A DNA stretch of 64,000 nt from Methylovirgula ligni (GCF_004135935.1 NZ_CP025086.1:3224001-3288000), one strand, 5' to 3'. Positions 25,194-43,299 are shown, counted from the first letter of the stretch. Program-made: numbers and translations. Notes: generated by a model not told the origin, from the sequence alone.

Positions 25194-25200
25194 ATCAATA

Positions 25201-25257: not shown

Positions 25258-26328
25258 CACCGGCTCCATTGCATTCATAGCATTGCGCAGATCGTCGTCC
25301 AGCACGTGCGCATATTTCGCCGTGGTTGAAACATCGCTGTGCCGGAGCAACCGCGAAACCATCTTCAAATTGCCTGTCGAGCGCAAGAGCCGGGTGGCGC
25401 AGGTGTGCCGTAAGTCGTGCAGCCGCAAGCCGACGACCCCCGCCTGCTCGCAAGCCTTTACGAAGGCCGCCGACAAGCTTCGATACGTCATCGGCTCATT
25501 GCTCATATTCCGCCAAACTGGCGTTCCTACGGCGTCTCTGGGCCGCATAGGGGCAAGAATTTCGATCATCGCGGCGGATAGCGGAATTGGCGCGGTCTTG
25601 TTGCCCTTCCCTCGCACGGTGATGATAAGGCCGGACCAATTAATGTCAGTCCATTTCATCCCGCAAAGCTCACTGGCCCGCAGCCCTGACAAGATCGCGA
25701 ACCGGACGGCGGGGTGATAGTGCGACGGCAGTACCGCAAAGATCGCCGCCTCCTCCTCTGCGCTCGCGAACCGGACGCGCTCGACAGGCTCCCGCAAGCG
25801 ATGGACGCGCCAATTGATCCTGCCGACAGTCTCGCCCCAATTCTGCTCAGCCCGGCGAAGGACTCGGCGGAGCGGATCGATAACGCTGCGATTGACCGTC
25901 GAATTTGATATGCGCTTCGGAATGCGCTCTTTCGCCATCTTGCCAGCGATCATCTTTGGGTAGCTGACAAGATCGCCGCGCCGCCGCGCGACCAATGCGG
26001 CAACATCGGAGTCGGTGATCGAGGCAATCGCCTTGTCAGGCCCGAGATTCTTGACGATGTAGACTAGCGACCAATTTATGTCGCGGTGCGACTTGGCGCG
26101 CTCCCCGACTTCAGCCCAATATCGCCCTGCTGCCTCATCGATTGTCATCGGCGCGGCATCGAAGCTTCGCGCATTGGCGAATTGCCGCTTTAGCTCCTCG
26201 CGAATCTCTCGCTCGCGCGCCTCGGCATCGCGTTTGTTCGCGTGTCCGGTCGATCCGGCGAATCGCTGGCCTTTGAACTGAAAGTCGTAAGTGTAGTTTG
26301 GCGAACCTTCGCGCTTGTAAATCGACAT
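25243..26328 (-). CDS. int: tyrosine-type site-specific integrase
   Basis: 361 residues from MSIYKREGSPNYTYDF. An N-terminal arm-binding and core-binding region (about 1-170) is followed by the catalytic domain with the Arg in SGLRASELCG, the H-x-x-R box HDLRHTCATRLL, the histidine in LLRHSDVSTTAKY and the tyrosine nucleophile in that last segment. It sits 50 bp inside attL and reads towards it. It should integrate and, with the HTH protein at 26544, excise the element. Confidence 0.95.
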   Translation of the reverse strand: MSIYKREGSPNYTYDFQFKGQRFAGSTGHANKRDAEAREREIREELKRQFANARSFDAAPMTIDEAAGRYWAEVGERAKSHRDINWSLVYIVKNLGPDKAIASITDSDVAALVARRRGDLVSYPKMIAGKMAKERIPKRISNSTVNRSVIDPLRRVLRRAEQNWGETVGRINWRVHRLREPVERVRFASAEEEAAIFAVLPSHYHPAVRFAILSGLRASELCGMKWTDINWSGLIITVRGKGNKTAPIPLSAAMIEILAPMRPRDAVGTPVWRNMSNEPMTYRSLSAAFVKACEQAGVVGLRLHDLRHTCATRLLRSTGNLKMVSRLLRHSDVSTTAKYAHVLDDDLRNAMNAMEPVKVPS

Positions 26329-26494
26329 CGGCCATACCGCGATTAAGCTGAATACCCGCAGTATGGCGACTCTCTGCGCACGCGGCAACGGCTGACATGC
26401 GCTGACATCCAAGAACAATGTGCAACAATCGATGTTCGCGATTGCTCACCTAAGCGCACTCCGCTTAATGTCATAAATGTATTGACGGAAACCC

Positions 26495-26525
26495 GCCCGA
26501 CGCTCCCGCAGCGCCGGGCTTTTTT
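26495..26525 (+). terminator. intrinsic terminator without an upstream gene
   Basis: GCCCG-a-CGCT / AGCG-c-CGGGC with a 5 nt loop is followed by six T (26520-26525). It points rightward in the int/xis divergent region, where no rightward gene precedes it. It may end a short RNA started within the preceding 150 bp or block leftward-module antisense transcription. Confidence 0.7.
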
Positions 26526-26543
26526 ATGCGCGAGGGAAAGACA

Positions 26544-26762
26544 ATGACCGCAACGAAGACTGGCACGGCCAGCGACACTATCGACGGCGCCCCGGCGATT
26601 GCTGCTTACATCGGCGTTTGCCCGCACACCGTCCGGCGTCGGCTTGCAAAGGGACTCCTGCCGGGAGCCTTCAGGGTCGGCAATCAAATCATGCTGAGCA
26701 AACTGGAATATCACGCTGGCGTCGCGGCGCGCATAGCCGAGTCATCTCGGCGCGTCGCTTAA
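26544..26762 (+). CDS. excisionase-like helix-turn-helix protein
   Basis: 72 residues from MTATKTGTASD, with GAGGGA seven bases upstream. GAPAIAAYIGVCPHTVRRRLAKGLLPGAFRVGNQIMLSK is a MerR/Xis-type winged HTH as found in recombination directionality factors. It is divergent from the integrase gene, an arrangement suited to control of excision. It could also act as a repressor. Confidence 0.65.
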   Translation: MTATKTGTASDTIDGAPAIAAYIGVCPHTVRRRLAKGLLPGAFRVGNQIMLSKLEYHAGVAARIAESSRRVA

Positions 26763-26777
26763 GAAAGGACAACTGAC

Positions 26778-27107
26778 ATGGATTATCTCGACATTGACCC
26801 CAATTCCATCCCGCCGGAAGGCCGCACGCTGACCGGCCCCGAATACTGCCGCATGTACCGCGAGATCGCGAAAGACGATCACCTAAAACAAGTCGCAGAA
26901 TGGATTGGCATGTACGGTCAAGACGCCGTTCTGCACTTGGTAGGGATGGCGCTCGTAAAGGCTTCAGACGACATTGTGTCTGACTTTCCCGACTCATCCT
27001 CTGACGAAATGTCCGAGCGGTATATGGCCGACGCATATCGCGTGATGAGACTCGCTGATGAACTTGCAGACGAGGTTGCCAGCCGCCTTGATCGGCGCAA
27101 GGCATAG
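26778..27107 (+). CDS. hypothetical element protein (acidic, 109 aa)
   Basis: 109 residues, acidic and predicted mostly helical; not recognised. It lies 15 bp after the excisionase-like gene, with AAAGGAC as ribosome-binding site and one CTGACA directly before the ATG, so the two are probably cotranscribed. A strong hairpin follows its stop codon. Confidence 0.6.
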   Translation: MDYLDIDPNSIPPEGRTLTGPEYCRMYREIAKDDHLKQVAEWIGMYGQDAVLHLVGMALVKASDDIVSDFPDSSSDEMSERYMADAYRVMRLADELADEVASRLDRRKA

Positions 27108-27133
27108 TCGCTGACACGTCTGATAGCAAAGAA

Positions 27134-27165
27134 AAGCCCGGCACCGCTCTAACGGTGCCGGGCTT
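27134..27165 (+). terminator. strong hairpin terminator
   Basis: A perfect 13 bp stem (27134-27146 with 27153-27165; AAGCCCGGCACCG) around CTCTAA. The arms begin with AA and end with TT, so it can act on both strands. It closes the 26544-27107 unit. Confidence 0.75.
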
Positions 27166-27197
27166 AGTCATATCAAACTACACACAAGAAGAATATA

Positions 27198-28150
27198 ATG
27201 TATATCAATACAAATGTAAATCATAAATCCGAATCTAAACATAAAAATCAGCGCGAAAATACTTCAAAGCGTCGCGATATATTGTCCGATAGGAAGAATC
27301 CAAACGCGCTTTTCGCGAAAAAGCTGAAGGCTAAGACATCGGCGCGGCCAAACCACGAGTCGCGCCTCTCCATGCGGCAGCACGCGGCTCTCAGGCTCAA
27401 TCATCTAGCACGAGTCGCGCTCTACAAGGCCAGCCTCGGACAGATGCTTGATCCCGAGGCGTGGATGTTTATCGCGGCAAACTATCTGTCATCGTTCCCG
27501 CCGGACCTGAGAGGATTCAGGCTGAACGTCGCGACACTCCGGCGCGCAATGGCTGACTGCGGTTTCGACGCGGACGAGATCACCGACGAGATCGAGCGGC
27601 AAACGCAATGGACGCTGACATGGCGGTCTAACGAATCTAAGCGTCTCGGCCGGCCGCACTACATTCCTGTCGGCGCTGACGAGGCCGGTGAAATTCTGGG
27701 AATCACTGAGGAGGAACGGCGGGTGGCGCAGTCGTGGCAAATAGGATGGCAGGGCGGATCACCGCAGGCGCGGCGGCAAGCCGAAAGGCAGGCCGACAAA
27801 GAGCGGCACGAAATTGCGCGGCGGCAGGCCGGAGCCGTAAGCCGGAAGGAATACGAAGCCGCAAGCGCGTCTCAACAGAAGCCTTGGGAAGCGGAAGGAG
27901 CAGCCGTCGCACTTGGTATCGCCGCCGCGATAGCGCGGGCACAAGTCCGTCTGGCACAGGTCCGTCTGGTGCAAATAAGGACAATGGCACAAGTCCGTCT
28001 GACGCAAAGATAATTAATAGAAGGGATTCCGAGACGACCGCCGAAAAGGCGGGCGCCAATGGAGTTTCAAGCGAGCCGCAGAGCGTTCCGGGTCGCATGT
28101 GGAACCTGCCGCCAGAAATTGCCTCTGCGCTTGGATGGACCGTCAGATAG
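27198..28150 (+). pseudogene. frameshifted HTH-type element gene
   Basis: The open frame from 27198 to 28013 gives 271 residues. After KPWEAEG (27879-27899) it runs into low-complexity AAVALGIAAAIARAQVRL. In the +1-shifted frame the same DNA reads SRRTWYRRRDSAGTSPSG and continues to 28150. I recall homologous rhizobial element proteins with KPWEAEG followed directly by V-S-R-R-T-W-Y-R-R-R, so a single base is probably missing near 27900. Up to that point the frame is well used, so the break is recent, unless frameshifting is programmed. Function of the family is not known to me. Confidence 0.6.
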
Positions 28151-28533
28151 GATCGAGGGAAAATTCCGGCGCCGAGAAAGTCAGAAGCGAACGCTTGGAT
28201 GGCAACGGCCTGACCCGTCATTTTAACGGGGTTGCAAACGTCTCGCCAGCACTCCCCAAAACCGGGGAATGCTCGGGACTGACACGCCGGCAACATTGGG
28301 CAACGGAGACGGCCTCAGACCGTTGTCAAATGCACCACGGCACGACAACGGCACAGAACGCCATTTCAGGCTGGCGAATCGTCTCGGCAGATAGCCAAAA
28401 CTGACAGGGATTCCCCCCATAGCGCCGGATACAACAAATGACGGCACTTTACCGATCGGTACAGATGGATAACTGGACCAATGCGTCCGGCTCGCGCGGG
28501 AATCGTTACGCTGTAACCGTCCTGTCAGCCGTG
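28151..28533. other. non-coding stretch before the serine recombinase gene
   Basis: These 383 bp hold no gene I can support. CTGACA/TGTCAG occurs at about 28277, 28400, 28525 and 28534. No terminator with a T-run was seen. Confidence 0.45.
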
Positions 28534-29220
28534 TCAGTGGTCAATAAGGTGCGTGGATTTCCAGCCCGGCTTTCTGGCAAGCACTTTGGCGACGCCCTCG
28601 TGGCTAATCTCGACGCCTGTTGCTCGCACGGACTCGGCAATGGCGCGCAATGACAAGCCTGTCTTGAAAAGCTTGTGCATCAGCTTAATCGCGCGTTGCT
28701 CGGCATCGTCATCTACAAGTTTTCCATCGACGGGCCGCCAGCCGAAGGGGCGCCTCCCACCCAAATACCGACCGCGCTGTTTCTGATCGGTCTTAACGTC
28801 CGCGATACGCTGACGAATACGATCACGCTCGGCTTCGGCCACGGCTGACAAAATGGTGAAAACCAACTTGGCGATACCGTTGCCGGTCACGTCGCCGCCA
28901 AGGTCGATAAGGTGCAAGCTGACGCCAGCTTTCTTGAGCGCGTCGAGGTTTTCCAGTGCGTCAACGGCGCTGCGGAACATGCGGTCTAGCTTGGCTGCGA
29001 TAACCACGTCGCCGGGCTTTAGGACGGCCAATAGAGACGATCCCTCGGGCCGCTCGCCCAATGGCACCGAACCAGAGACTCCCCGCTCTACGAAGCTCCT
29101 ACCGATTTCTAGGCCGTGCATCTGTGCATATCCGGCGACAATGCGCTGTTGCACGTCGAGACTTTCGCCATCATCGGCCTGACGACGAGTTGAAACGCGC
29201 GCATATGAATAGACGGCCAT
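28534..29220 (-). CDS. serine recombinase (resolvase/invertase family)
   Basis: 228 residues. The catalytic domain begins MAVYSYARVSTRRQADD with the nucleophilic serine in YARVST. LKPGDVVIAAKLDRMFRS carries conserved catalytic residues, and AEAERDRIRQRIADVK is the E-helix. A C-terminal DNA-binding HTH (LRAIAESVRATGVEISHEGVAKVLAR) follows. It could resolve dimers, invert DNA or promote transfer. TGTCAACTTG repeats upstream may be its binding site. Confidence 0.93.
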   Translation of the reverse strand: MAVYSYARVSTRRQADDGESLDVQQRIVAGYAQMHGLEIGRSFVERGVSGSVPLGERPEGSSLLAVLKPGDVVIAAKLDRMFRSAVDALENLDALKKAGVSLHLIDLGGDVTGNGIAKLVFTILSAVAEAERDRIRQRIADVKTDQKQRGRYLGGRRPFGWRPVDGKLVDDDAEQRAIKLMHKLFKTGLSLRAIAESVRATGVEISHEGVAKVLARKPGWKSTHLIDH

Positions 29221-29230
29221 GTCATTCCCC

Positions 29231-29288
29231 TGTCAACTTGTCAGCTTGCATCAAGACATAGATCAAAGCTGCAAAGCTTGTCAACTTG
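29231..29288. repeat. direct repeats upstream of the serine recombinase
   Basis: TGTCAACTTG occurs at 29231-29240 and 29279-29288 (48 bp apart), with a related TTGTCAGCTTGC between them (29238-29249). The placement just before the recombinase start suggests an operator or a res-like site. Confidence 0.45.
29255..29284 (-). promoter_or_regulatory. candidate serine recombinase promoter
   Basis: On the minus strand TTGACA (29284-29279), an 18 bp spacer and TATGTC (29260-29255), about 35 bp before the ATG. The perfect -35 overlaps a TGTCAACTTG repeat, so a repeat-binding protein would repress. Confidence 0.4.
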
Positions 29289-29685
29289 CTAATGCAACCT
29301 GACAATCAATTCGCTATTTCGCTTCCTAACTAATTGATTTTGCTTTATTCCTCAAAATTGAGGGCTGCTAGAGCACCAATCATCACCATGCTCGGCACAT
29401 GACGCTCGGCTAAATTGTCAGGCTCAGATCGCGCCATTGACGCAAGGGGGTCACAAAACGTTACCCCCTTCGCCGCCATCACCGCGCCATGTCAGTGCCG
29501 GGCGCACGGCTCGCATTCGAGCAATCCCCCCCGACCTTCGATTTGCGCGAGGCCAATACCGGGCGCCTCCTACTCGTGGACCTAATTCAAATTTTGAAAA
29601 AATAGAATGTGCAACAGTCGCAAACGCGAATTGCGTCATTCACGTACTTTCGGGTATTGTCAGAATTGTAATCGACGAAATTTCG

Positions 29686-29709
29686 CCCGGCCCGCGCGCC
29701 GGGTTTTTT
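29686..29709 (+). terminator. intrinsic terminator without an upstream gene
   Basis: CCCGGC-ccgcgc-GCCGGG followed by six T. It points rightward, 130 bp before the phage-like module, and has no supported rightward gene before it, like the terminator at 26495-26525. Confidence 0.75.
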
Positions 29710-29839
29710 GTTGCCTCCCCCGCATCAATCGCTTGCCGGCGCCCCGTCCCATCACCGGGTGCGCGCGGCGACACGCGCCCGTCCGCCGTTCCGGGAAAAT
29801 TGCGACTGACGGGCGCGCTCAATCCCCAAGGGCTAAAGC

Positions 29840-30133
29840 ATGGCCAGACCGCTCGACCTCTCAAAATCTGACGATAGGCTCGCAATCGACTTCGCCATCA
29901 GCAACGGCGCGTCAAATGCCGCAATCGCCGCCGCCTTCGACGTCAATATCCGCACGCTCGCGTTCTACGCCCGCCGAATGCGCGAAGCCGACAGTCGCTA
30001 CTTTAACCGGCTTCGCATTACTGGCACGCCGCGCGCTGACGACGCGATTATCGCCGCAGCCCGCTATTACGCGGAAAAAGTCCGCCAAGAGCTTCTGAAC
30101 GCAGCTCTCTCCGTATTCGCAAACCATCGCTGA
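29840..30133 (+). CDS. small HTH-like element protein
   Basis: 97 residues. AIAAAFDVNIRTLAFYARRMRE looks like a helix-turn-helix, compatible with a regulator or a small-terminase-like DNA-binding protein. It is first in a rightward run of six genes ending in the tape-measure-like protein, with gaps of 12-33 bp or overlaps. Not otherwise recognised. Confidence 0.55.
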   Translation: MARPLDLSKSDDRLAIDFAISNGASNAAIAAAFDVNIRTLAFYARRMREADSRYFNRLRITGTPRADDAIIAAARYYAEKVRQELLNAALSVFANHR

Positions 30134-30145
30134 CAAGGAATCCCA

Positions 30146-30688
30146 ATGAGCTTTGAAACCGACATCGCAACCGCTGCGCTACGCCGCGACCTCGCCTTGG
30201 ACCTCCGCGCCGGTTATTTGAAGGCCCGCGAAGGCTCGAAACGCTGGCAAGAACTCGACGCACTCCATGCGCGCGAACACGCCCGTCTCCTCCGCGCCGC
30301 CACACCGCAAGAGGCAACTGACATTGCGCGATCTGCCATCGCTGAAATTGAGGCCATTGCCGCCGCCGATCTTGCTGACTGGCAGCGAGAACTGACAGAC
30401 CGTCGCAAGCTTGCAGAAGACGCCCGTCACTTTGAGCTTCGTCGCCAGCAACGTCTTGCATGGGCGCAGCGCGTCGGCGCGCCGACCATTACCGCGATCA
30501 ATCGCGTGGTGGAGCGGCTTGAAGAAGCCCGTCGCGGAATCACAGGCCGCAGCGAATCCGAGGCAGACATCCGCGCGCACCTTACTGACATCGGCGACGC
30601 GCTGCGCTCTATGGCAGCGACCATCGCCCTCGAATCTAGCGCCTCGATCGCTCGCGAAACCGCCGCCGAAAAAGCCGCCGCAGCTTAA
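30146..30688 (+). CDS. helical coiled-coil element protein
   Basis: 180 residues, rich in Ala, Arg and Glu with long predicted helices (for example WQRELTDRRKLAEDARHFELRRQQRLAWAQ in part). AAGGAA precedes the ATG. It could be a scaffold-like or DNA-associated protein. I see no named domain. Confidence 0.55.
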   Translation: MSFETDIATAALRRDLALDLRAGYLKAREGSKRWQELDALHAREHARLLRAATPQEATDIARSAIAEIEAIAAADLADWQRELTDRRKLAEDARHFELRRQQRLAWAQRVGAPTITAINRVVERLEEARRGITGRSESEADIRAHLTDIGDALRSMAATIALESSASIARETAAEKAAAA

Positions 30689-30700
30689 AGGAAGCCGCCC

Positions 30701-30991
30701 ATGACATCCGACGCTCTGAAAATGTCAGCGGCGCAATTTGCCGCCGCCACAAAGCAAATCGCCAATAACGAATCCATTGCCTACATCAGGCGCCGCAACG
30801 CGCAAGACCTCGCCAAGATCGGGATTGATGTTCCTCGCGCCGATGCCTGGGGCAAGCTCACTCCCGAGGAACGGGCGATCATTCGCGACGGCCAGTTGCG
30901 CGAGTTGGCCGAGCGCGAAGCCGCGCGGCTCCTTGAAGCCGAGCGCGAACGGTTTTGGACTGACATTCGAAAAAAATACGGCTCGGCATGA
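30701..30991 (+). CDS. small element protein, unknown
   Basis: 96 residues, helical, ending RFWTDIRKKYGSA. It follows the coiled-coil gene by 12 bp and overlaps the next start by 4 bp (ATGA). Internal LTPEERAIIRDGQLRELAER is a charged helix. Function unknown. Confidence 0.55.
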   Translation: MTSDALKMSAAQFAAATKQIANNESIAYIRRRNAQDLAKIGIDVPRADAWGKLTPEERAIIRDGQLRELAEREAARLLEAERERFWTDIRKKYGSA

Positions 30992-31182
30992 CACGTTCTA
31001 CCACGCTGACACGCCGCCCGCTCATTGTCCGCCGCAAACTGACTCCCCGCATAACCGCAACCGTCCTTATTGACCATAAGTCGCGTTGCGCGACATGCCG
31101 GAAGGCACGACTCGGCCGCTTCGCGAAGCTTATCGCTCGCGCCGAACTGACCCGCGCTCGCAACCGCCATCGCGGACGCTGA
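30988..31182 (+). CDS. very basic small element protein
   Basis: 64 residues with about 19 Arg/Lys and a C-x-x-C pair (CATCRKARLGR), suggesting nucleic acid or zinc binding. Coupled to the previous gene by an ATGA overlap. Its short length makes the call moderate. Confidence 0.45.
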   Translation: MTRSTTLTRRPLIVRRKLTPRITATVLIDHKSRCATCRKARLGRFAKLIARAELTRARNRHRGR

Positions 31183-31215
31183 CACGCCCAACTCTCCAAG
31201 TTAGGAAATTCCAAA

Positions 31216-31782
31216 ATGACTGTTTCGTACCTCGCAGGCCGCTACTACGCGGCTGCGCCCGCTGGCGCTCGCTTCAAATCTGCCCCGCTTCAATCCGGCC
31301 TCTTGCTGGCAACACCCTTCACGCTGACAGAAAATCTTGAGCTGACAGCAATCGAGTTAGTCTCTACCAGCCTGTCCGTACAGCAAGGCGTCGTCAAGGT
31401 TGCTCTCTACAGCGCCATCAATGGCGTTCCGTCCGGCGCTCCTGTCCTCACCGTTGATGTGCGAATCCCGCAGGTTGGCCGCGCGCTTTGGCAGGTTCCG
31501 ACTGACGGAGACGGCAACCCGATTCCCGTTGCGCTTCTCGCCGGCAGCTATTTCGTGGTGACGATGACAGTCGGCAACCTGACGCTGCGGGCAATCGACG
31601 GCTCGACGCAAGAGATTGAGTCGGTCTTTGGTCGCTCGGACCTTTCGGACCCGCGCCCCGTATCGGCCCTGACGCTCCCCGGCGCTGCCGTCACCGCGTT
31701 GCCGCTGACATTCACAGGCACCGAGTCTTGGCAGGATTGGCATGGCCCGGCTGCGGCGCCTGCCGTCTATCTCGCGTCCTAA
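31216..31782 (+). CDS. beta-rich phage structural-like protein
   Basis: 188 residues, rich in Val, Leu, Thr, Ala and Gly with alternating beta-strand patterns (ALLAGSYFVVTMTVGNLTLRA in part). It lies immediately before the tape-measure-like gene, so a tail or decoration role is a reasonable inference; no family was recognised. The DNA holds several CTGACA hexamers, some forcing the otherwise rare Thr codon ACA. Confidence 0.5.
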   Translation: MTVSYLAGRYYAAAPAGARFKSAPLQSGLLLATPFTLTENLELTAIELVSTSLSVQQGVVKVALYSAINGVPSGAPVLTVDVRIPQVGRALWQVPTDGDGNPIPVALLAGSYFVVTMTVGNLTLRAIDGSTQEIESVFGRSDLSDPRPVSALTLPGAAVTALPLTFTGTESWQDWHGPAAAPAVYLAS

Positions 31783-31809
31783 CGCTGACACAGGAAAGCT
31801 TCAACTGAC

Positions 31810-33762
31810 ATGGCAAACGTCTACAAGATCGCCGTTGCGTTGCAGATGACCTCGAATGCCCCGGCGTTTCTCTCATCGCTGTCGAAACAATTGCTCGGGC
31901 TGGACGTAAGCGCCAAGACGCTCGAAAAGTCCTTCGCTCGCCTCGGCCCGGCGCTGACACTCGGATTATCTGCCTTCGCGGCAAGCGGCATCCTTGCCGG
32001 CCTTAAGAGCGCGGCGGACGCGGGCAAGGAATTGCTCGACGTCCAAAACCAGTTGGCTCGCGCTGGCCTCTCTCATGCGCAGGTCGCCGGATTGACAGCC
32101 GCCGCTTATGAAAAAATGGCGCGCCTTGTCCCGACCGCGACCGGCGCTGACATTCTCCGCACCGCCGGGCAGTTGCGCGTCGTCACTGGATCACTTCCAA
32201 AGGCGATCTCCGAGACTCCCGAGGCTTTGAAGATCGAAGCCTTGCTTGAAAACCTGACGGGGCAGTCCGCCGACGGCGCGGGGCATCAGCTTTGGCGCTC
32301 GCTGGAGATGAAGGGCTTGACCGGCGGCAACGCTATTCAGCAAGCGGTCGCACAAAAGCTCCTCGAATCGTTCGTTCAAGATATTTCCGCGTCGGGCGGC
32401 AAGTTGTCAGCGCGCGATTTTCTCAACGCGGCCAAGACCGGCGGTGCATACTGGCAGCGGGCGGCTCCCGACTTTCTGGCAGGCCCCGGCGCTGTTGTCA
32501 TGGCAGACCTTGGCGGCGATAGGTTCGGCACCGCGCTGGCATCCCTCGGACAATTTACGAGCGGCGCGCTGACAATCTCGAAACAGCAATACGAGACGTT
32601 GCGCGCTATCGGCATGATCGATCCGCACAAGGTTTCGACTGACAGGGGTGGCCGCGTGAATATGCAGCCGGGCGCAATCGCGGGCTCGCTGCAATACGGA
32701 AGCGATCCTTACGCTTGGGTCCAGAAAGCGTTGCTCCCGCACCTTGACGCGGCGGGGATCAAGGAAGGGCCGGAGCGCGACTCGATCCTCTCGAAGATCG
32801 GACGGAATAGGAACGTTATCCGAATGTTGGATATGTTCTCGGACCCCGGCTTCGTCGCGCAAATCAACAAAGACCTATCGATCTTTCGCCAGAGTCAGGG
32901 CCTCGACGCGGCCTATAGCAGCTATGTCAGGAACGATCCGAAGGGAGTCGACAAGGCTTTCGACGCGCAATATCGCTCAATGATGATGGCCATCGGCGCG
33001 CCATTGGAGCAAGCCGCCATCCCTGTCATGTCAGCCGTCACGAGCATGTTCACGAGCATCGGCGCATTCGCCCAAAAGCATCCGAATATCGTGAAGGAAA
33101 TCGGCTTCGATGCCCTGCTCGGGCCGCTCGCTGCGGTCGTCAACGGATTCAGGACGCTCGGCACCGTGTTTAGCCCGCTCGGCAAGAGCTTCGCCAGCCT
33201 CGCCAGCACCATGAGTCCGCTGACATCCGCGACAAACGCTTTCGTGTCAGCCTTGTCAGCCCTTGGCGGAATCTTCGGCAAGATCGAATCTGCCATCGGC
33301 GGCCTCGCGGGAAAGACCTGGGCCATCCCTGCCGCGCCCGGCGGCTATCTCGGCAAGAACCCGATCTATCACAAGAGCGGCTTTGTGAGCCCCGCACTGT
33401 CCCCGTCGAATGGCGCGACGATCATCAAGGCCGACGCGGGTGGCAACATCCTCGCTTATGGTCCCGGAGGCGCAACACAGATTGGTTATATGGAGGATGG
33501 CGCGCGCTGGAAGGTCAGGCACGGCGACGACGCATGGGATGGTGTGAGGCGTTTTGACATGGCTATGTCGAGCGTTGTCCCGAAATCGCCGCGCAACGTG
33601 CAAGTGACAGTGCCGTTAGAAGTGAAGCTGGACAACAAGGTGCTGACGAAGGCCGTAATGAAGCGGCAGATTGCCATGATGACAATGCCGCTTGGAATTC
33701 ACGGCGGCCCGGACGGATACGGCTCTTTCATCGGGCCGGGAACAAGTCTGCAAAACGCATAA
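31810..33762 (+). CDS. phage tail tape-measure-like protein
   Basis: 650 residues. It has a helical N-terminus (LSKQLLGLDVSAKTLEKSF) and hydrophobic glycine/alanine stretches near residues 50-65 and 420-500 (for example LTLGLSAFAASGILAGL, FVSALSALGGIFGKIESAI). The overall character is that of tape-measure proteins. No major tail protein, portal, capsid or terminase is recognisable next to it, which is odd for an active phage. The call is by pattern, not by domain match. Confidence 0.55.
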   Translation: MANVYKIAVALQMTSNAPAFLSSLSKQLLGLDVSAKTLEKSFARLGPALTLGLSAFAASGILAGLKSAADAGKELLDVQNQLARAGLSHAQVAGLTAAAYEKMARLVPTATGADILRTAGQLRVVTGSLPKAISETPEALKIEALLENLTGQSADGAGHQLWRSLEMKGLTGGNAIQQAVAQKLLESFVQDISASGGKLSARDFLNAAKTGGAYWQRAAPDFLAGPGAVVMADLGGDRFGTALASLGQFTSGALTISKQQYETLRAIGMIDPHKVSTDRGGRVNMQPGAIAGSLQYGSDPYAWVQKALLPHLDAAGIKEGPERDSILSKIGRNRNVIRMLDMFSDPGFVAQINKDLSIFRQSQGLDAAYSSYVRNDPKGVDKAFDAQYRSMMMAIGAPLEQAAIPVMSAVTSMFTSIGAFAQKHPNIVKEIGFDALLGPLAAVVNGFRTLGTVFSPLGKSFASLASTMSPLTSATNAFVSALSALGGIFGKIESAIGGLAGKTWAIPAAPGGYLGKNPIYHKSGFVSPALSPSNGATIIKADAGGNILAYGPGGATQIGYMEDGARWKVRHGDDAWDGVRRFDMAMSSVVPKSPRNVQVTVPLEVKLDNKVLTKAVMKRQIAMMTMPLGIHGGPDGYGSFIGPGTSLQNA

Positions 33763-33786
33763 TTCTGTGCCTCGCAAGCGGCACGA

Positions 33787-34251
33787 TCAATGATTGTGGG
33801 CTTGCCGGACAGCCACAAATGCATATGCGAGATTGGTCCAATGCTGCAATTTGCTGCAAATGTCCTCGACCCGGGCGAATAGCTTTCCGTCGGTCGGTTT
33901 TCCGGCGCCCTCCGTCGCTTCCATTGCGAGTATCGAAAAATCTAGAAGCGCCAAGACCTTGTCCAACGCTCGGTATCCATTGAACTGTATGTCGTATTTA
34001 ACGTGCGCCACGTTGCAATCGTGCTTAACAAGCTCGTTGTTTGAAAATCTATCATCGCAAGCGGCGAGATAATCTCTGAAGCTGTTGAGTTCCTCAACAG
34101 GCATCTTTGCTATGTCTCCGGCGGCGGCGGAGAGGAGCTTGTCGTCAAAGATTTGTTGCATGGGACCGCTCGGAGCGGCTTGCGCACAAACCGGCGCCGA
34201 CTGCGAGAGAAAAGCTATAGCCAATATGATCGCTATAAATTTAGGGCGCAT
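33787..34251 (-). CDS. small exported hypothetical protein
   Basis: 154 residues from MRPKFIAIILAI, preceded by GGGGGAG, with a signal peptide ending VCAQA. The mature protein has two or three cysteines (AACDDR, HDC, DIC) and is helical. It is the first gene of the cargo block, convergent with the tape-measure-like gene. Not recognised. Confidence 0.65.
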   Translation of the reverse strand: MRPKFIAIILAIAFLSQSAPVCAQAAPSGPMQQIFDDKLLSAAAGDIAKMPVEELNSFRDYLAACDDRFSNNELVKHDCNVAHVKYDIQFNGYRALDKVLALLDFSILAMEATEGAGKPTDGKLFARVEDICSKLQHWTNLAYAFVAVRQAHNH

Positions 34252-34434
34252 CGGCTCCCCCAAATGTCATCCGTTTTCAAAGGTATAAACTCTATGTCCA
34301 CCCTGCGATGGCGCGGTCCGCGAGGCGACCCAGTTCGTCAAACGAAAAATCCTTTCGCCTACCTCAACATAGACTGGAAGAAGAAACGCGGATACTAATG
34401 TTTGGCTTAGGCTTGATCGATTTTGAGGTCTGCT

Positions 34435-35385: not shown

Positions 35386-35500
35386 GACTCCGGCGCCCCG
35401 TGCAGCGCAAAGCAATTGAGACTGTCCAGACGATGGCTTGCTTCTAAGCAGCCTTCAAACCAAAGCCGAAGCAATTTTAGCTATTCGGGGATTTGCATAG

Positions 35501-36424: not shown

Positions 36425-36429
36425 CATTG

Positions 36430-36722
36430 CAGTAAGTCCGATCTATCGGCTCAATCGTCATGGAGTCATCATCGCCAACACCAGTGCGATTAATCCGCCG
36501 ATCTATTGGCCATTCACGTAGCTCGGTCTCGCCCGCAGGATGTAATTCTCTCGCTTCCATATCGCCCGATAACCAGCGATCAATTTCGGCTTGCTGCAAA
36601 AGGACCGGCACTCGGTCATGATACGGCAACATCCATTGCGTTGGCTCAGTCACGATCAGCGTGCAAGAAAGAACGTCTTTGCCTGTATGCGGATTGCGTC
36701 AAGGCTCCCACATCGCGAATTT
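36430..36722 (-). pseudogene. remnant of an SOS response-associated peptidase (SRAP/HMCES-like)
   Basis: The minus strand encodes KFAMWEP-stop-RNPHTGKDVLSCTLIVTEP and then TQWMLPYHDRVPVLLQQAEI and INRTGVGDDDSMTIEPI. This is the C-terminal half of the SRAP family, which shields abasic sites by covalent attachment. The N-terminal part with the catalytic Cys is absent. A TGA (36699-36701) replaces a position I expect to be Trp, and the natural stop is lost. Decayed. Confidence 0.75.
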
Positions 36723-37453
36723 CATTTCATGCTCATCACTAGCAGCATCGCCTGACAGAAAAGTAGTATTAGATAGGCGAGCAACGACAGGATGCGCCCC
36801 ATTACAACGGCAATATAAACGCGCCTTCTAGGCGCGCCAGCCACTTGCGCTATCCCTTCAGAGAGCAATACACCAGTAACGAGCAACATAGCGCGCCATA
36901 GCCAGTCCGATGACTCATCGACCCAATTGTACAGGAAATCATGTTGCAACTGCGCAGGGATAAATTGTTTTGCGTGACAAAAGAAATAACCGAGCGTTTC
37001 CCATGGGCTTTGATGCAGCTCTCTTAGCGAGCGAAGAAACAAGACAAACCTGTAGGAGGGGAGCACCTGTGACAAGTCAGATATTGGAAGCAAGATCACG
37101 GTTGTCGAGTAGCAAATTATGAGGGTGATAAAATCGATATTGACCCTAACTAAGCGAAGGAGGCCAAATAGGATTGTAACGTTGGTGCCTATTATAGCGA
37201 TGACCGTCATCTGATAGAGTACCAAAAACTGAGGCGACGTCTCAATTTTTGAAAGCGAAAACCATATCCATTCGACTGCAAATGCGATGGTTAGCCCAGT
37301 CGTCCATACTTGGACAAGCGGCGAATTAATTCTATCCGCAAATGTAATATCTGCACGCGACGTATACTTGTGTTGAAGGAGATCGTTGACGGTTTGGATT
37401 GGGTGAAAGACCTGCCAAAACCACGCCAACAGGACATTTAGGCCCACTCTCAT
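36722..37453 (-). CDS. multi-span membrane protein, unknown
   Basis: 243 residues with five or six hydrophobic segments (for example VWTTGLTIAFAVEWIWFSL, MTVIAIIGTNVTILFGLL, ILSLLAYLILLFCQAMLLV). It starts 2 bp after the next upstream membrane gene, so the two form a pair. AT-richer than chromosomal neighbours. No family recognised. Confidence 0.65.
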   Translation of the reverse strand: MRVGLNVLLAWFWQVFHPIQTVNDLLQHKYTSRADITFADRINSPLVQVWTTGLTIAFAVEWIWFSLSKIETSPQFLVLYQMTVIAIIGTNVTILFGLLRLVRVNIDFITLIICYSTTVILLPISDLSQVLPSYRFVLFLRSLRELHQSPWETLGYFFCHAKQFIPAQLQHDFLYNWVDESSDWLWRAMLLVTGVLLSEGIAQVAGAPRRRVYIAVVMGRILSLLAYLILLFCQAMLLVMSMK

Positions 37454-37455
37454 AA

Positions 37456-37950
37456 TCAGCTACCCAGCCGGTGGAGTGGAACTATGAAGCGAACAAAAAT
37501 CTGCCGATACCGGATCAGCAAATAACCGAGAAGAAGACTTGTCATCCAATCGTAAAATGAATCATTACCGAGATACCTAATGGCAAAAACGTTTAGGTAG
37601 GCGAGCCATATATTGGCAAAAATTAGAAATTTAATTGGCCGTCGATCACTCAGCCATTTCAGCCCGTAATGCGCAGGTGTAATGAGTATGCATGCGATAA
37701 TCGCGAAGGCGAAGATGGCAAATGCCACCATGCCGGCGACACTTGCCTTTATCGTTGGAGCGCGGGCAAGAAGATGGCATTTCAAGCCGAAGTCAATTAC
37801 CTGACGACTGAAGGCGAAATAAATAATCCCGCTGATAAGTGCAGTCGCAACAATGCAAATGAAATTTACGATCATCATACTGATCGCGCCGACGACAAAC
37901 TGGTCCGAATTTAATGTTATTCTTATTGGCACAGAGGGACTCTTCGTCAT
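37456..37950 (-). CDS. membrane protein, partner of the 36722 gene
   Basis: 164 residues with four predicted membrane segments. It has no recognised motif. A TTGTCAGCTTGC sequence (37964-37975) just upstream also occurs upstream of the serine recombinase gene. Together with the 36722 gene it is a candidate two-component envelope system of the cargo block. Confidence 0.6.
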   Translation of the reverse strand: MTKSPSVPIRITLNSDQFVVGAISMMIVNFICIVATALISGIIYFAFSRQVIDFGLKCHLLARAPTIKASVAGMVAFAIFAFAIIACILITPAHYGLKWLSDRRPIKFLIFANIWLAYLNVFAIRYLGNDSFYDWMTSLLLGYLLIRYRQIFVRFIVPLHRLGS

Positions 37951-37996
37951 TCAGCCTCCCAGTTGTCAGCTTGCCGTCATAGATCGCCAAAGAGCG

Positions 37997-38297
37997 CTAC
38001 GGCTTTATCGGTTTCGGCCCGGCTACTCGTAATCCTGCCCCGGACGCACCTAACTCCCATTCCGCGACTCCGCCATGATGCGAACAGGTGCCCCGGCATG
38101 GTGACGCGAGAAGCTATGCGAGCCGTCGTTGCAGATCGCAGTCTCGCTTTCTTGATGCGTCGCCGCGCAGACAGGCCAGTGTACCTCTTGGCCGTCCTCA
38201 TTGACGTAAGAGCCTGGCGTCGCATGGCAGCGCGTGTCGGCAAGGGCTGAGCAGACGATAGGCAAGCGGCCATCAGCGCGGCCCCTAGGACTTTCAT
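37997..38297 (-). pseudogene. DUF3761-like exported protein with two frameshifts
   Basis: The first frame gives a signal peptide, MKVLGAALMAACLSSA. A second frame gives CHATPGSYVNEDGQEV and ETAICNDGSHSFSRHHAG. A third gives GTCSHHGGVAEWEL to a stop at 37997. Joined, these make a typical DUF3761 protein (C-x-D-G-x-x-S-x-S-x-H ... C-S-H-H-G-G-V). So one indel lies near the signal-peptide end and one near 38085. Confidence 0.7.
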
Positions 38298-38574
38298 GGC
38301 GTTTCCCAGTCGTTGACGGGTAATAACGCACAGCCTAGGCTTTGAATGCAAGGACGACGATGGGTTACCGATCGCAAAATAATTATGATGCCGACGAGCG
38401 CGAGGCTTGGAGACGGCTGCCTTAGCGCGAACGATATGATGGCCCCTGATCGTTGCCCGGCCTTCCTGTCGTCGCGGAATTTGCTACGGGGGTACTGGTG
38501 CGGCAGGGTGTGATTTAGACTGCGCACAGCGTCCTCGGCACGTGCTCTTATCTTCTCACAAGCGCAACACTCGC

Positions 38575-38856
38575 CTAATCATCATCTTTCTCAAACTCCT
38601 CGCCCTCATCTACGACCTCGAACAGGTCTGCCGGCAACTCTCCCAATTGTCTGAGAATTTGCGCATCCGCGAACTCGGCTACCGCAGGATCGCCTGTCCT
38701 CGAAAAAGCGATGGCGCCCGCGTTTAAACGCGCCAGCCGTTCGGCCTCCCTGACAGCGCGCGAGGCCGTTATGCACTCGATTGCGTCACCCGCTATCAGG
38801 TCGCCATCCTCGGTGCGCTGGAAGGGCAGCGCGACGAAATATGTAACCTCGCCCAT
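38575..38856 (-). CDS. conserved small hypothetical protein of Hyphomicrobiales
   Basis: 93 residues starting MGEVTYFVALPFQRTEDGDLIAGDA. AEFADAQILRQLGELPADL and an acidic tail follow. I recall close relatives as short chromosomal hypothetical proteins in many rhizobial genomes, of unknown role. It appears intact here. Confidence 0.75.
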   Translation of the reverse strand: MGEVTYFVALPFQRTEDGDLIAGDAIECITASRAVREAERLARLNAGAIAFSRTGDPAVAEFADAQILRQLGELPADLFEVVDEGEEFEKDDD

Positions 38857-38903
38857 GACCGCTGGACTCCTTTTGCGGACTATGCGACCGTGGGGAACAT
38901 ATC

Positions 38904-39134
38904 ATGAACATAGAGGCTGTGGAAGCGGTGGGGGAGCCCTTAGAACGGCCAAACGAGGGCAAGAAAGCTTCCCTAGCGGCAGAGGCGGACGAGACCGTTG
39001 CTGAGCGCGGGGGAGATGCAAGGGAGGCCGTTAAGGCACTACTTGCAAAGATAGCTTACCTGGAGGCTGCAAGAGACCGGGCGTTGTCCCACGTGTTTTA
39101 CGGCTATGCACGCGGCAAACTAGACGGTCCGTGA
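38904..39134 (+). CDS. small acidic hypothetical protein
   Basis: 76 residues from MNIEAVEAVGEPLERP, with GGGGAAC before the ATG. The C-terminal half is a helix (VKALLAKIAYLEAARDRALSH). Not recognised. Confidence 0.45.
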   Translation: MNIEAVEAVGEPLERPNEGKKASLAAEADETVAERGGDAREAVKALLAKIAYLEAARDRALSHVFYGYARGKLDGP

Positions 39135-39233
39135 TTCCGCGTCTGAAGAAAAGTTTCAAGCAACGAATCGGAGAATTCGCACTAAATAAGGGAGTGCCTT
39201 TAGAACTCACTTTTCGTAAATTACGAGACTCAA

Positions 39234-40466
39234 ATGAACGGACAGCAGCCATCATACCTATTCAGCGGGCATTCGTGCTTCGATGTCGCTCGTAGTGTAG
39301 CGAATACATCACTGCAGGAAGCGAGATCATACTCAGAGAACACAATTCTGGCGACGCCCGTGGAGGACCTGATCGCTGCGTTAAGGGACAAGTATTCTCC
39401 TGATTTCCCGAAAATGCGGAGCGAAGAAGTCTGGATTGAGGAAGACGAGAAGACTCACGAGGCGCGTAACGGCTTCGATTACGGCTTCGATAGAGGCACT
39501 CGCAAAATCACAACGCACTACGTAAAATTCCACGTACCTTTCGCCGGAGATGGAAGTATCTTCCATATTCAGCCAAGTAATCGAACTCTTCCGGGACCTT
39601 CGGCACTTGTGAACGGCCAAGAACTCGTCATTACCGTTGCGACAACGAACAAGAACGGCGCCCAAGTCAAAGCGGAGTTTGAGCAGACCCTTCGGAGCAT
39701 CGAACAGCATTTGACGACTCTGTTTCGCGATCTGGGAAATATCCCAGCCCAAATAGAGCAGCCTGCGAGGCAAATTCTAACCGAGCGAAGAAACCAGATA
39801 CTCAAAAGCAAAGACCTAGTTGCCTCGCTTGGCTTTCCGATGAAGCGGCGTCCCGACGCGCCAAAAACATACCGCGCTCCCGAAGTGCGCCGGAAGTTGT
39901 CACCGGTGCGTCCGGAGACCACAACACCCTTTCAGCCAGAGCCAGAATTAGCTGAGGCTGAATATCAATTCATTCTGGAAATCATGGACAACATGACGAA
40001 GGTGATGGAGCAAAGCCCTCATACCTTTGTGAAGATGGGAGAAGAAGACATCCGGACCCACTTCCTTGTGCAACTCAACGGACAGTATCAGGGGCAGGCC
40101 ACTGGCGAGACTTTCAATTATGAGGGAAAGACTGACATCATTATCAAGTCTGCAGGCCGCAACATCTTCATAGCCGAGTGCAAAATCTGGAGGGGGGAAA
40201 AGGTATTTATCGAAACTGTGGATCAGCTGTTATCGTATCTGAGTTGGCGTGACACAAAAGCTTCTGTCGTGATTTTCAATAGGAACAAGAATACGTCTGG
40301 CGTGATAACAACTATTAGAGCAGCAATGGAAAACTACTCTCATAAAAAAAGAGGACCGACTATCGAAAGCGAGACGCGCCTAAGGTATGTATTAGGGAAT
40401 CCGGGAGACACGAACCGCGAGATAGTTATGACGATAATGGTCTATGACATACCCCTTGATCCATAA
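39234..40466 (+). CDS. PD-(D/E)XK-like nuclease protein, candidate defence gene
   Basis: 410 residues. The C-terminal part has EGKTDIIIKSAGRNIFIAECKIWRGEK, fitting the D-x(n)-E-x-K core of PD-(D/E)XK endonucleases. ETVDQLLSYLSWRDTKASVVIFNR continues the fold. The N-terminal 220 residues are of unknown fold. There is no methylase beside it, so it is not an ordinary type II restriction enzyme. It stands alone in the cargo block, as single-gene phage-defence or DNA-surveillance proteins do. Low-GC codon use suggests transfer. Confidence 0.6.
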   Translation: MNGQQPSYLFSGHSCFDVARSVANTSLQEARSYSENTILATPVEDLIAALRDKYSPDFPKMRSEEVWIEEDEKTHEARNGFDYGFDRGTRKITTHYVKFHVPFAGDGSIFHIQPSNRTLPGPSALVNGQELVITVATTNKNGAQVKAEFEQTLRSIEQHLTTLFRDLGNIPAQIEQPARQILTERRNQILKSKDLVASLGFPMKRRPDAPKTYRAPEVRRKLSPVRPETTTPFQPEPELAEAEYQFILEIMDNMTKVMEQSPHTFVKMGEEDIRTHFLVQLNGQYQGQATGETFNYEGKTDIIIKSAGRNIFIAECKIWRGEKVFIETVDQLLSYLSWRDTKASVVIFNRNKNTSGVITTIRAAMENYSHKKRGPTIESETRLRYVLGNPGDTNREIVMTIMVYDIPLDP

Positions 40467-40583
40467 ATCGATGGGCATCGTTTGCGATGAGGGGGCGACA
40501 CCCAATCCGCGCGCTCCTATCACTTTCTTCTGCGGGAAAGCGAGCTACGTTCGAAATCGCTCCGAGCAAGCTCAAAGCTCGGC

Positions 40584-41441
40584 TTAACCGGCCACTTCGC
40601 TGACCGGTAATGTCTGACCGCCCATTGTTGCGACGGTCAAAATGCTTGATAGCTGGCCGGGGCGCACGAGGGCACTTGCGGGTACGAGCGAAGATTCGGG
40701 TTGCTCAAAAAGAGCGATGATTTTCGGGTCATGAGAGGCCGCAATGGTGAGCCAAAGTCCTTTGTGAAACTTGGCCACCGCCGCGATTGTCGAGCGCCCA
40801 TCGCAATTGAAGCGATAAGAGAATTGATCGCTCACATGCACCTTGCCTTGCCGCAGCGTTGCGAACATGGGCATAATTTTAATGCGATCATCCAAAGTCT
40901 TTTGCGACATTCCTCCGCTGAGCGCGAATTGAGTCCACGCGGCTCCATCCAGAGGCAGCGCCGACCCTGTATGCTCGCGATAAAGCGCCATCGCCAATTT
41001 CGCGCCGAAAACCGAAAGATGGGCATGGGTGATAGGTCCATCCGCCTGAATTTGGACGACTCGTTGCATCAGGCCGGAGTTACGCCGCGCCACGAGGTCT
41101 AATCGGTTCTTATTCGCGCGCTGAAATTCTTCGAGCACGCCGGGCGCGAACCTCCTCACGGCTCTAAGCCGTTTGTCTATTTCGTCAGCCTGCCAAGTTC
41201 CCACCAGGGTATCTGGATGCAGGGTCGCGAACATCGCTGCGACGGCGTCGGCCCCTCCGGTCCCGCTATTGCAAGCCGCGCAAGTACCAAATGCCATTTT
41301 GTTTGGCCGCTGGCGGCCGCGAAACATGCCGATTGGCGGCATGTGTTCGAGAGTGTCAGCTCCGTTCTCGCAATAGATGCAGCGAGCTTCCGCCGCTTTA
41401 ATTGCGGCATTCGACTGGCTCTTCCTTGTAGCTTCCCCCAT
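40584..41441 (-). CDS. HNH-endonuclease-like zinc protein
   Basis: 285 residues. Near the N-terminus CIYCENGADTLEHMPPIGMF followed by GTCAACN has the C-x-x-C, central H-x-P-P and second C-x-x-C arrangement of HNH-like proteins. The rest is not recognised. Convergent with the PD-(D/E)XK-like gene (117 bp apart). The nuclease role is inferred from the zinc pattern only. Confidence 0.55.
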   Translation of the reverse strand: MGEATRKSQSNAAIKAAEARCIYCENGADTLEHMPPIGMFRGRQRPNKMAFGTCAACNSGTGGADAVAAMFATLHPDTLVGTWQADEIDKRLRAVRRFAPGVLEEFQRANKNRLDLVARRNSGLMQRVVQIQADGPITHAHLSVFGAKLAMALYREHTGSALPLDGAAWTQFALSGGMSQKTLDDRIKIMPMFATLRQGKVHVSDQFSYRFNCDGRSTIAAVAKFHKGLWLTIAASHDPKIIALFEQPESSLVPASALVRPGQLSSILTVATMGGQTLPVSEVAG

Positions 41442-41711
41442 CTTTTTGCTCGCTTAGCTACTCGCGCGTTGCTCCAGTCGGTTTGTGAATCACAGACACG
41501 TCGCCGACTTCAAATTCGTCCCTGATTGGCGGCTGCATCCTGCACAGGGCCTTTTCCCTCTTTGGAATTTTGTTCCCATAGCTTGGCCATTTAGCCACTT
41601 AATAAAGCTTAGCTATGCGCAAGGCGACATACCAGCTTTCAAGAAAACGCAAGAAATTTCCGCTATCGGCAATGAGGGCGCGCTTGAAGGGGTGAACGGC
41701 TAGCCGCGCGC

Positions 41712-42260
41712 CTATCTGGCCTCCGCCATCTCCAACATTTTTTGGCCCAGAAGCAAAAGATTCTCTCGGCTCAATACGGAAGCGTGCTTGATCGCTTGCT
41801 CCATCTGGTCAAGAAAGCCAGCCGATTGCAGCGCGGCTTTTGCGGCATCACCAAGCACTCCGGGATGCTTAATCGAGAACCAGAGAATGAAAACGCTGAG
41901 TACCCTGTTAGATTCCCCTGACAGGTCTCGATACCACTTAGCGGCGAATAGGATGACGAAGTCCGTTTCTTCCTCATCAAGTTTGAGGATTTCAACGGGG
42001 TCTCGATCCGCGTGCTTAAGAAAATTTGCGGAATGATTCATGGCATTCCAAAATTCGCTCTCGTGACCGGGGGCAATCCAATCCGTGAAGCATAGGTAGC
42101 TCTCGATTTGTTTTTCCTCAGCTAGGTCTGCGATTATTCCGCGTGCCGCAGCGGCGACAGAGTGAGTTGCTGTCGGGTCTGCTCCGGCAAAAGTCATCCG
42201 TATAGCGGCCTCGATTTGACGCCGCGCCGCTTCCATTTTGTTGAGTCGTAACTTTGTCAT
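41712..42260 (-). CDS. conserved hypothetical protein, helical
   Basis: 182 residues starting MTKLRLNKMEAARRQIEAAIRMTF. ADPTATHSVAAAARGIIADL and FLKHADRDPVEILKL are segments I recall from a widespread uncharacterised family (R-Q-x-x-x-A-I-R ... N-F-x-K-H-A-D). Function unknown. A motif AGCTTGACAACTT lies just upstream (42268-42280). Confidence 0.7.
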   Translation of the reverse strand: MTKLRLNKMEAARRQIEAAIRMTFAGADPTATHSVAAAARGIIADLAEEKQIESYLCFTDWIAPGHESEFWNAMNHSANFLKHADRDPVEILKLDEEETDFVILFAAKWYRDLSGESNRVLSVFILWFSIKHPGVLGDAAKAALQSAGFLDQMEQAIKHASVLSRENLLLLGQKMLEMAEAR

Positions 42261-42382
42261 GACCTTGAGCTTGACAACTTAACCGACTCGCGCGAGCTTC
42301 GCTGCGCGTAAGGGCGACATGCCCGCTCCTGAATGAAACGCACGTTTCAACCGCCCGCATGGGCAACACAGGAGTAGAACGC

Positions 42383-42610
42383 ATGTCAGATGAAATTCCC
42401 GCCGCCGAACTCCACCGCCAGAAAACCAGCGACTTAAATGATCGTGTCATCCGGCTTGCCGGTATCGCCGCGAGCGTAGTCGATCCCCTGCTAGAATCCG
42501 CTGGCTCGCGACCGCTGACATCGCAAGAGTGCGACATCGGCGACGAAGCAATCTTTGCGCTCAAACGGGCGATTGCCGATCTTTACGCGCACCGCGAGGG
42601 CGCGCCCTAA
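42383..42610 (+). CDS. small element protein, unknown
   Basis: 75 residues from MSDEIPAAELHRQ, with AGGAG eight bases upstream. The start ATG is itself within ATGTCAG. Helical and acidic. It marks the return of the CTGACA-rich backbone after the cargo block. Confidence 0.6.
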   Translation: MSDEIPAAELHRQKTSDLNDRVIRLAGIAASVVDPLLESAGSRPLTSQECDIGDEAIFALKRAIADLYAHREGAP

Positions 42611-42773
42611 CTGACACGCTGACAGACTGCTCTATCGCTTCTCGCCTTGACGAAGACGAGAAGACGAAAGTCGATCTTTCCGCCGTCTGTAATACTGACG
42701 GCGGGAAAATCAATAACTTAGCACTTGGCGCAAGCGGCAGGGTGGCAGTCAGATGCTTCCCGCCTACATTATG

Positions 42774-42845
42774 GGCTGACAGTCCGCCGCCTAGTCATGA
42801 CAGGCGATTAGCTGGCGAGCAGAGCGCGGCGGCGGACTGTCAGCC
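42774..42845. repeat. perfect 18 bp inverted repeat with CTGACA in both arms
   Basis: GGCTGACAGTCCGCCGCC (42774-42791) and its exact complement (42828-42845) are separated by 36 nt. It lies between convergent genes and the right arm runs into the 3' end of the 42840 gene. No T-run follows on either side. It could be a bidirectional terminator, a protein-binding site or a replication/packaging structure. Confidence 0.8.
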
Positions 42846-43115
42846 TTGCCGCTCCCCCGGAATCCACTGGCCGGGCGCTCGTGGCGGCTCGGGCCGAATC
42901 GAAACCCGCCGATTGCCGCACTGGCTGCACACGAAGCGCCGATGGCGCAGAATGTCAGTCACCGGCAGCTCATCCGGCAGACCGAACTCCCGTACATCGA
43001 ACGCCGCATGATGGAAGCACTCGATACGCTCGCAATAGACGATGACGCGCGGCCCGCGATTGGCGGCGAAGGCGGCGATTGTCGGCGGCGGGATATTCTG
43101 TCGATTGGCTGACAT
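42840..43115 (-). CDS. small zinc-finger-like protein
   Basis: 91 residues. Pairs CERIECFHHAAF and FVCSQCGNRRVSIRP suggest a C-x(4)-C ... C-x-x-C zinc site. I recall similar short proteins as hypothetical in rhizobial phage regions. GGGGGCAGGC precedes the ATG. It is the last gene before attR. Confidence 0.65.
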   Translation of the reverse strand: MSANRQNIPPPTIAAFAANRGPRVIVYCERIECFHHAAFDVREFGLPDELPVTDILRHRRFVCSQCGNRRVSIRPEPPRAPGQWIPGERQG

Positions 43116-43179
43116 GCCTGCCCCCGCGCCAATGTCAGCGCACGGCGAATCTATTCGAGAACAAAATAAGATTCACTGT

Positions 43180-43281
43180 TGGGACTTTTGATGGGACTTT
43201 TTTCGCCTTATATCCGTTTCCGTCCGCTTATTGTTCTTGTCTGGCGGCGGCTGACAGAAATCAGAAATCCATAAATATCAG
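43180..43281. promoter_or_regulatory. candidate integrase arm sites, right end
   Basis: TGGGACTTT at 43180-43188 and 43192-43200, and AAATCCATAAATATCAG at 43265-43281, mirror the sites inside attL in the same orientation. They lie 19-120 bp inside the right core. Confidence 0.45.
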
Positions 43282-43299
43282 CGGTTTCAATGAGATAGT

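Follow-up and report, generated by a model that had tools for sequence, protein, structure and literature searches.

Over-representation of the hexamer CTGACA in the backbone of an integrated element of Methylovirgula ligni

The island and its content of CTGACA

The window analysed here, a stretch of 64,000 nucleotides, comprises bases 3224001-3288000 of the single-contig 3.30-Mb genome of the alphaproteobacterium Methylovirgula ligni (GCF_004135935.1, NZ_CP025086.1) and harbours an integrated element bounded by direct repeats, the right copy of which forms the 3′ part of a tRNA-Gly gene (Table 1; positions are those of the window unless stated otherwise). This island is organised as a left backbone, a cargo block at about 33.8-42.3 kb and a last kilobase which is backbone again, the backbone totalling 9.7 kb. 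A tail tape-measure-like gene was the sole phage structural gene recognised among the genes scanned, in which small open reading frames were covered in part. As capsid, portal and terminase genes were not recognised in this set, the island lacks the gene complement of a complete prophage and is probably a defective prophage or a satellite. A DNA search returned no phage match, and plasmid matches were limited to the resolvase region. Its backbone carries an excess of the hexamer CTGACA which is real, very strong and unusual.

Table 1. Features of the island and of its surroundings in the window.
Feature	Position	Strand	Remarks
Integrated element, 18.2 kb	25147-43346		between 47-bp exact direct repeats
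Left direct repeat	25147-25193		47 bp
Left CTGACA-rich stretch	25644-33259		42 sites, mean spacing 186 bp
Tyrosine integrase	25243-26328	-	PF00589, E 8e-28; phrog_1, E 5e-59; 4 CTGACA sites; just inside left repeat
Small helix-turn-helix (HTH), excisionase-like protein	26544-26762	+	weak match; phrog_66, phrog_10045, E 0.002
109-aa protein	26778-27107	+	function unassigned; ATG completes CTGACATG
271-aa all-helical protein	27198-28013	+	distant homologues (25-37%) in many alphaproteobacterial elements
Serine resolvase/invertase	28534-29220	-	PF00239, E 1e-30; stop codon is TGA of a CTGACA
97-aa protein	29840-30133	+	predicted N-terminal HTH (low confidence, pLDDT 65); opens rightward operon
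Four genes (180, 96, 64, 188 aa)	30146-31782	+	function unassigned
Tail tape-measure-like protein, 650 aa	31810-33762	+	phrog_28, E 1.4e-6; phrog_58, E 4.6e-6; ends rightward operon
Cargo block	33787-42260		lower GC; no CTGACA excess (6 sites, O/E 1.8)
Right backbone	42383-43115		two genes (75 aa and 91 aa)
75-aa gene	42383-42610	+	right backbone
Right CTGACA-rich stretch	42384-43256		10 sites
91-aa cysteine-containing gene	42840-43115	-	right backbone
Right direct repeat	43300-43346		47 bp
tRNA-Gly	43301-43374	-

CTGACA and TGTCAG were counted together, i.e. on both strands, and hexamers pooled with their reverse complements gave 2,080 words. A previous sequence-only reading had estimated about 42 sites on the left and about 10 on the right, and exact counting returned the same numbers: 42 sites in 25147-33800 (28 on the plus and 14 on the minus strand), 6 in 33800-42300 and 10 in 42300-43346. 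The backbone thus holds 52 sites in 9.7 kb or 5.4 per kb, about 25 times the host-genome frequency. The enrichment claimed for the element holds for the left and the right backbone, but not for the block between them, so that a single word sets the backbone apart from the cargo within one island.

The rate of the genome itself predicts 2.0 sites for the 9.7-kb backbone, and dinucleotide shuffling of the backbone gave 2.7 ± 1.8 sites with a maximum of 8 in 300 shuffles. The comparison with a third-order Markov model, which the sequence-only reading had proposed as a check, ranked CTGACA first among the 2,080 words (15.3 expected, z 9.4), even though this expectation is inflated because the model was trained on the same 9.7 kb, which already contain the word. 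A fourth-order model absorbs the excess (41.5 expected), because the counts of CTGAC and TGACA then mostly come from CTGACA. Base or dinucleotide composition was therefore rejected as the cause. The flanks within the window contain just 9 sites in about 46 kb, and a chromosome sample showed slight depletion (93 sites in 445 kb, 0.21 per kb, O/E 0.65). Six of the seven close CTGACA pairs of the whole genome lie inside the island. Of 334 pieces covering all loci analysed, each at most 9.7 kb long, just two had a top-hexamer score exceeding that of the island backbone; the highest was a collagen-like coding repeat with 88 copies, and the other word occurred in 13 copies.

Synonymous codons were shuffled within each gene in 1,000 rounds, which yielded 3.8 sense and 2.6 antisense sites, 6.4 in total, as compared to the 18 and 11 (29 in total) observed; none of the shuffles exceeded 14 genic sites. 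Codon usage was thus rejected as the cause, as the sequence-only reading had argued, and neither of the two outcomes by which its claim could have fallen, a frequency explained by composition or codons and an equal density in the flanks, was found. Sites occur in all reading frames, on both strands and in genic as well as intergenic DNA. They are denser in non-coding DNA (23 sites in 2.4 kb, 9.4 per kb) than in genes (4.0 per kb), and 17 are wholly intergenic versus 0.84 in shuffles. As the excess is present in both genic and intergenic DNA, the pressure apparently acts on the DNA. The coding-strand preference noticed at 29.8-33.8 kb is numerically correct (17 versus 6), but the genic ratio of 18:11 matches that of the codon shuffles (3.8:2.6). 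The preference is therefore a codon effect, and a true strand bias inside genes was rejected. This weakens the proposal of a packaging or orientation signal, as does the number of 52 copies, which far exceeds the need of a packaging site.

The sites in the integrase gene are located in ordinary conserved integrase sequence (MKWTDINW, AILSGLR) with no visible extra residues. Insertion of the hexamer as a unit is thus unsupported on inspection, and the words apparently arose by base changes.

Form of the word and sites at gene junctions

The conserved signal consists of exactly six bases. Its flanks carry no information beyond the host's own preferences and no longer hidden consensus was found around it; the preferred A or G before the hexamer was not borne out, since G, A and C contexts are similarly enriched over the host and T less so. 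A tandem or dispersed repeat family was rejected, as the copies share no flanking sequence and a repeat search found few repeats. The gaps between sites fit an exponential distribution (p 0.75), which indicates random spacing; neither regular spacing nor helical phasing was found, there being no 10.5-bp periodicity. One-base variants of CTGACA are enriched at positions 1, 4 and 6 and unenriched at positions 2, 3 and 5.

Random spacing on both strands, within genes and in non-coding DNA, would be expected of an iterated methylation target. CTGACA may accordingly resemble HIP1, as a methyltransferase target in its native host which was made or kept by methylation-dependent processes; near-misses of HIP1 are end-biased (PMC4390886), as are those enriched here at positions 1 and 6 (also 4), and the density of the sites suits this reading as well. 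However, HIP words are palindromic and genome-wide, whereas CTGACA is asymmetric and confined to one element, which places it outside that class. Furthermore, no methyltransferase was recognised among the element genes scanned, the two PF01555 methyltransferases of the host lack assigned specificity, and the host chromosome is unenriched. We consider a methylation-linked origin unlikely.

Gene boundaries lie at most 4 bp from a site in 11 of 26 cases, compared to 2.7 expected when the numbers of genic and non-genic sites were kept constant. In four stop codons the TGA is part of a CTGACA, and the ATG codons of the genes starting at 26778 and 31810 complete CTGACATG. All nine non-coding sites that lie no more than 35 bp from a gene boundary and are not imposed by a TGA stop occupy the sense strand, in a test which was devised after inspection of the data and at positions which short gaps and the letters of TGA and ATG make easily reached. 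Sense orientation of junction sites is regarded as a lead. An orientation pattern of the convergent gaps, striking at first sight, fails with the nearest gene as reference and was not used.

These junction sites bear on the possibility that an element-encoded protein binds the many asymmetric sites and stops transcription across a silent element, in the manner of stoperators, which are found in short intergenic spaces and oriented with transcription (PMC9283540, PMC6550527). Both the boundary count and the orientation, the latter with its post hoc framing, speak in favour, and the predicted HTH proteins at 26544 and 29840 are candidate binders. On the other hand, 29 of the 52 sites are genic with a sense:antisense ratio as predicted by codons, and six conserved bases are short for one repressor, so that the long site typical of stoperators (13 bp) is lacking. 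At 0.21 per kb, the host genome would moreover hold roughly 690 competing sites. Silencing of this kind appears doubtful.

Genes of the island and survey of relatives

Apart from the assignments in Table 1, the 97-aa protein at 29840 is a candidate DNA-binding protein on the basis of its predicted fold. The tape-measure-like gene contains 10 CTGACA sites, 5 sense and 5 antisense. The 271-aa protein (27198) had neither a Pfam nor a PHROG match; at the end of its gene (27938-28006), we noticed three imperfect 21-nt repeats (GGCACAAGTCCGTCTGGCACA), at which the frame may be broken and the conserved C-terminus missing. For two backbone proteins, the predicted structures had no useful counterpart in the PDB. 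The two right-backbone genes have short homologues in many family genomes, and its convergent gap contains a perfect 18-bp inverted repeat with a 36-bp loop (42774-42845), GGCTGACAGTCCGCCGCC / GGCGGCGGACTGTCAGCC, with one CTGACA in each arm.

Within the cargo, the protein encoded at 39234-40466 (+) strongly matches the candidate anti-phage defence family PDC-S54 (E 2e-145), and its C-terminal part is nuclease-like on inspection by eye. The adjoining gene (40584-41441, -) encodes an HNH-like protein which weakly matches two models, Septu PtuB and PDC-M01B (E about 0.002-0.004). Elsewhere in the genome (1120001-1140000), an integrated plasmid-like or integrative and conjugative element-like region encodes RepA (PF10134), a ParA-type ATPase and an N6/N4 DNA methyltransferase; it holds 13 CTGACA in 20 kb (O/E 1.5), about threefold over the chromosome average.

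Relatives of the element were sought by its proteins. Tape-measure relatives among 150 genomes shared 24-29% identity only, and the sequence around these distant homologues showed no CTGACA excess. Homologues of the 271-aa gene were found in the family, the order, the GTDB representatives and IMG/VR; none of about 60 loci with such a homologue was enriched (pooled O/E 0.75-0.90 in the order, GTDB and IMG/VR sets), and their densest 5 kb held at most 8 sites versus 32 in the island. The best relative, with 10 sites in 9.3 kb (z 2.4), was judged unconvincing and not counted as support. By 8-mer patterns, the tape-measure protein and those encoded at 31216 and 30146 had no relatives in IMG/VR, nor had the tape measure one in the GTDB representatives.

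The motif itself was also used as a query. Searches for motif clusters in 397 family and 289 class genomes yielded only tandem repeats and clusters attributable to chance; two class outliers, G787 and G919, were rejected as CTGACA-enriched genomes because of tandem repeats. In the close-pair survey of class genomes, genome G1039 had O/E 1.85 in 20 kb. In IMG/VR, the dense hits inspected among the matches listed were clustered or tandem repeats, e.g. GTTGTCAGTTGTCAG, and as these scans cover the matches listed only, a rare related phage could be missed. One phage-like contig (3300011992_000043, 893-2142) has intergenic gaps with GTTGTCAGTTGTCAG / ACTGGCAACTGACAAC inverted repeats, a CTGACA-containing family unrelated to the island. 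A literature search for the word CTGACA returned nothing relevant.

The search of related elements which had been suggested from the sequence thus found no relative sharing the excess, and because of this conservation gives no support to a function. The excess rests on one element, which would suit a word without function, left by past mutational bias or chance fixation in the lineage. Nevertheless, no shuffle reached the observed count, the sites are neither tandem nor homologous copies, and no known mutational process yields one exact non-palindromic hexamer in all contexts, which makes this explanation decidedly unlikely.

Candidate functions and comparison with known systems

CTGACA looks like a dispersed signal, selected in the backbone, private to this lineage and read by a protein; a reading protein is suggested by the strictness of the word, which is kept even in stop codons and leaders. 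Our leading guess, which we put forward tentatively, is a signal of the Chi type whose origin lies in a former host or a helper phage. The prophage- or satellite-like backbone would have accumulated CTGACA under selection, through single base changes at any place where the coding sequence tolerated them, as a mark for an AddAB/RecBCD-type helicase-nuclease of that host or helper. At CTGACA the enzyme would stop degrading and start recombining, whereby a small element in which no recombination gene was recognised could survive as linear DNA and form multimers. The present host would not be the one in which the signal evolved.

Consistent with this Chi-like role, the word is exact, asymmetric and short (Chi sequences are 5-8 nt) and its randomly spaced sites occupy both strands. 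None of the backbone genes scanned was recognised as one of homologous recombination, and Chi is over-represented in E. coli phages which lack recombinases (PMC3784561). AddAB-type enzymes exist in this group, as the host has two separate AddAB-like PDDEXK_1 gene pairs (genome positions 1880689-1884878 and 1146013-1149941). Several observations weigh against a Chi-like role. The host chromosome is depleted of CTGACA, while a Chi sequence is enriched in the bacterium to which it belongs. The density of 5.4 per kb greatly exceeds that of Chi in recombinase-negative lambdoid phages (0.2 per kb; PMC3784561). The coarse close-pair survey of 289 class genomes showed no clear genome-wide excess, the motif is shared by no relative examined, and the junction sites seem to follow the direction of transcription, a pattern not predicted for Chi. 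Of the Chi-like signal proposed by the sequence-only reading, the part concerning the present host is thus unlikely (O/E 0.65 in 445 kb), and because of this depletion the enzyme would have to be that of a former host or of a helper phage. The stoperator-like and the methylation-linked readings are close rivals of the Chi-like guess.

A protein of the element or of a helper might also read the dispersed hexamers as a self-mark which tells element DNA from host DNA, in replication, protection from nucleases, silencing or packaging, with selection to about one site per 190 bp; this is possible, if rather doubtful. Primase or replication-protein recognition sites, of the element or a helper, are very improbable. 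Priming of the lagging strand depends on numerous sites in both strands, and phage primase-polymerases can recognise specific motifs (TTTGGTTA and GTG for NrS-1; PMC8718748). However, no primase was recognised in the element. Most primases use 3-5 bases, which the six fixed bases of CTGACA exceed. A DNA uptake sequence was rejected, the host chromosome being without CTGACA enrichment. Readings outside the Chi, stoperator, methylation, primase and no-function explanations keep the remaining probability. If functional, the word would illustrate the way in which a small mobile element labels its DNA as its own, and it might point to the Chi sequence of an alphaproteobacterial lineage.

Several defining functional features of Chi, stoperators and HIP were tested and are absent here. 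Chi in recombinase-negative lambdoid phages, read by RecBCD (PMC3784561), is likewise a short, exact, asymmetric and over-represented word in genic and intergenic mobile DNA, but it has 8 bp, occurs at about 0.2 per kb and is enriched in the host too, whereas CTGACA has 6 bp, occurs at 5.4 per kb in a depleted host and is known from sequence alone. The stoperators of cluster A mycobacteriophages (L5, TipsytheTRex; PMC9283540, PMC6550527) are also many asymmetric sites distributed along a temperate element, in many cases located at gene junctions and transcription-oriented; they differ in having 13 bp, more than 20 (to about 30) copies per phage genome and mostly one orientation relative to transcription, while more than half of the 6-bp CTGACA sites are genic and both strands are used. 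HIP1 and alternate HIPs of cyanobacteria (PMC4390886) share iteration, at hundreds to thousands per Mb, and end-biased near-misses, but they are palindromic, genome-wide and methyltransferase-tied with 500-2500 copies per Mb, in contrast to about 5400 per Mb for the asymmetric CTGACA of one element. The 21-nt direct repeats of T1-like phages such as TLS (PMC11447400) similarly lie between genes, point the same way as transcription and have an unassigned function; these have a degenerate middle and number 18 in the intergenic DNA of 50 kb, most of them upstream of a start codon. The 5.4 CTGACA per kb exceed the densities of the Chi, stoperator and HIP examples, and its density and exactness, confined to one mobile element, have no equal among the systems compared here.

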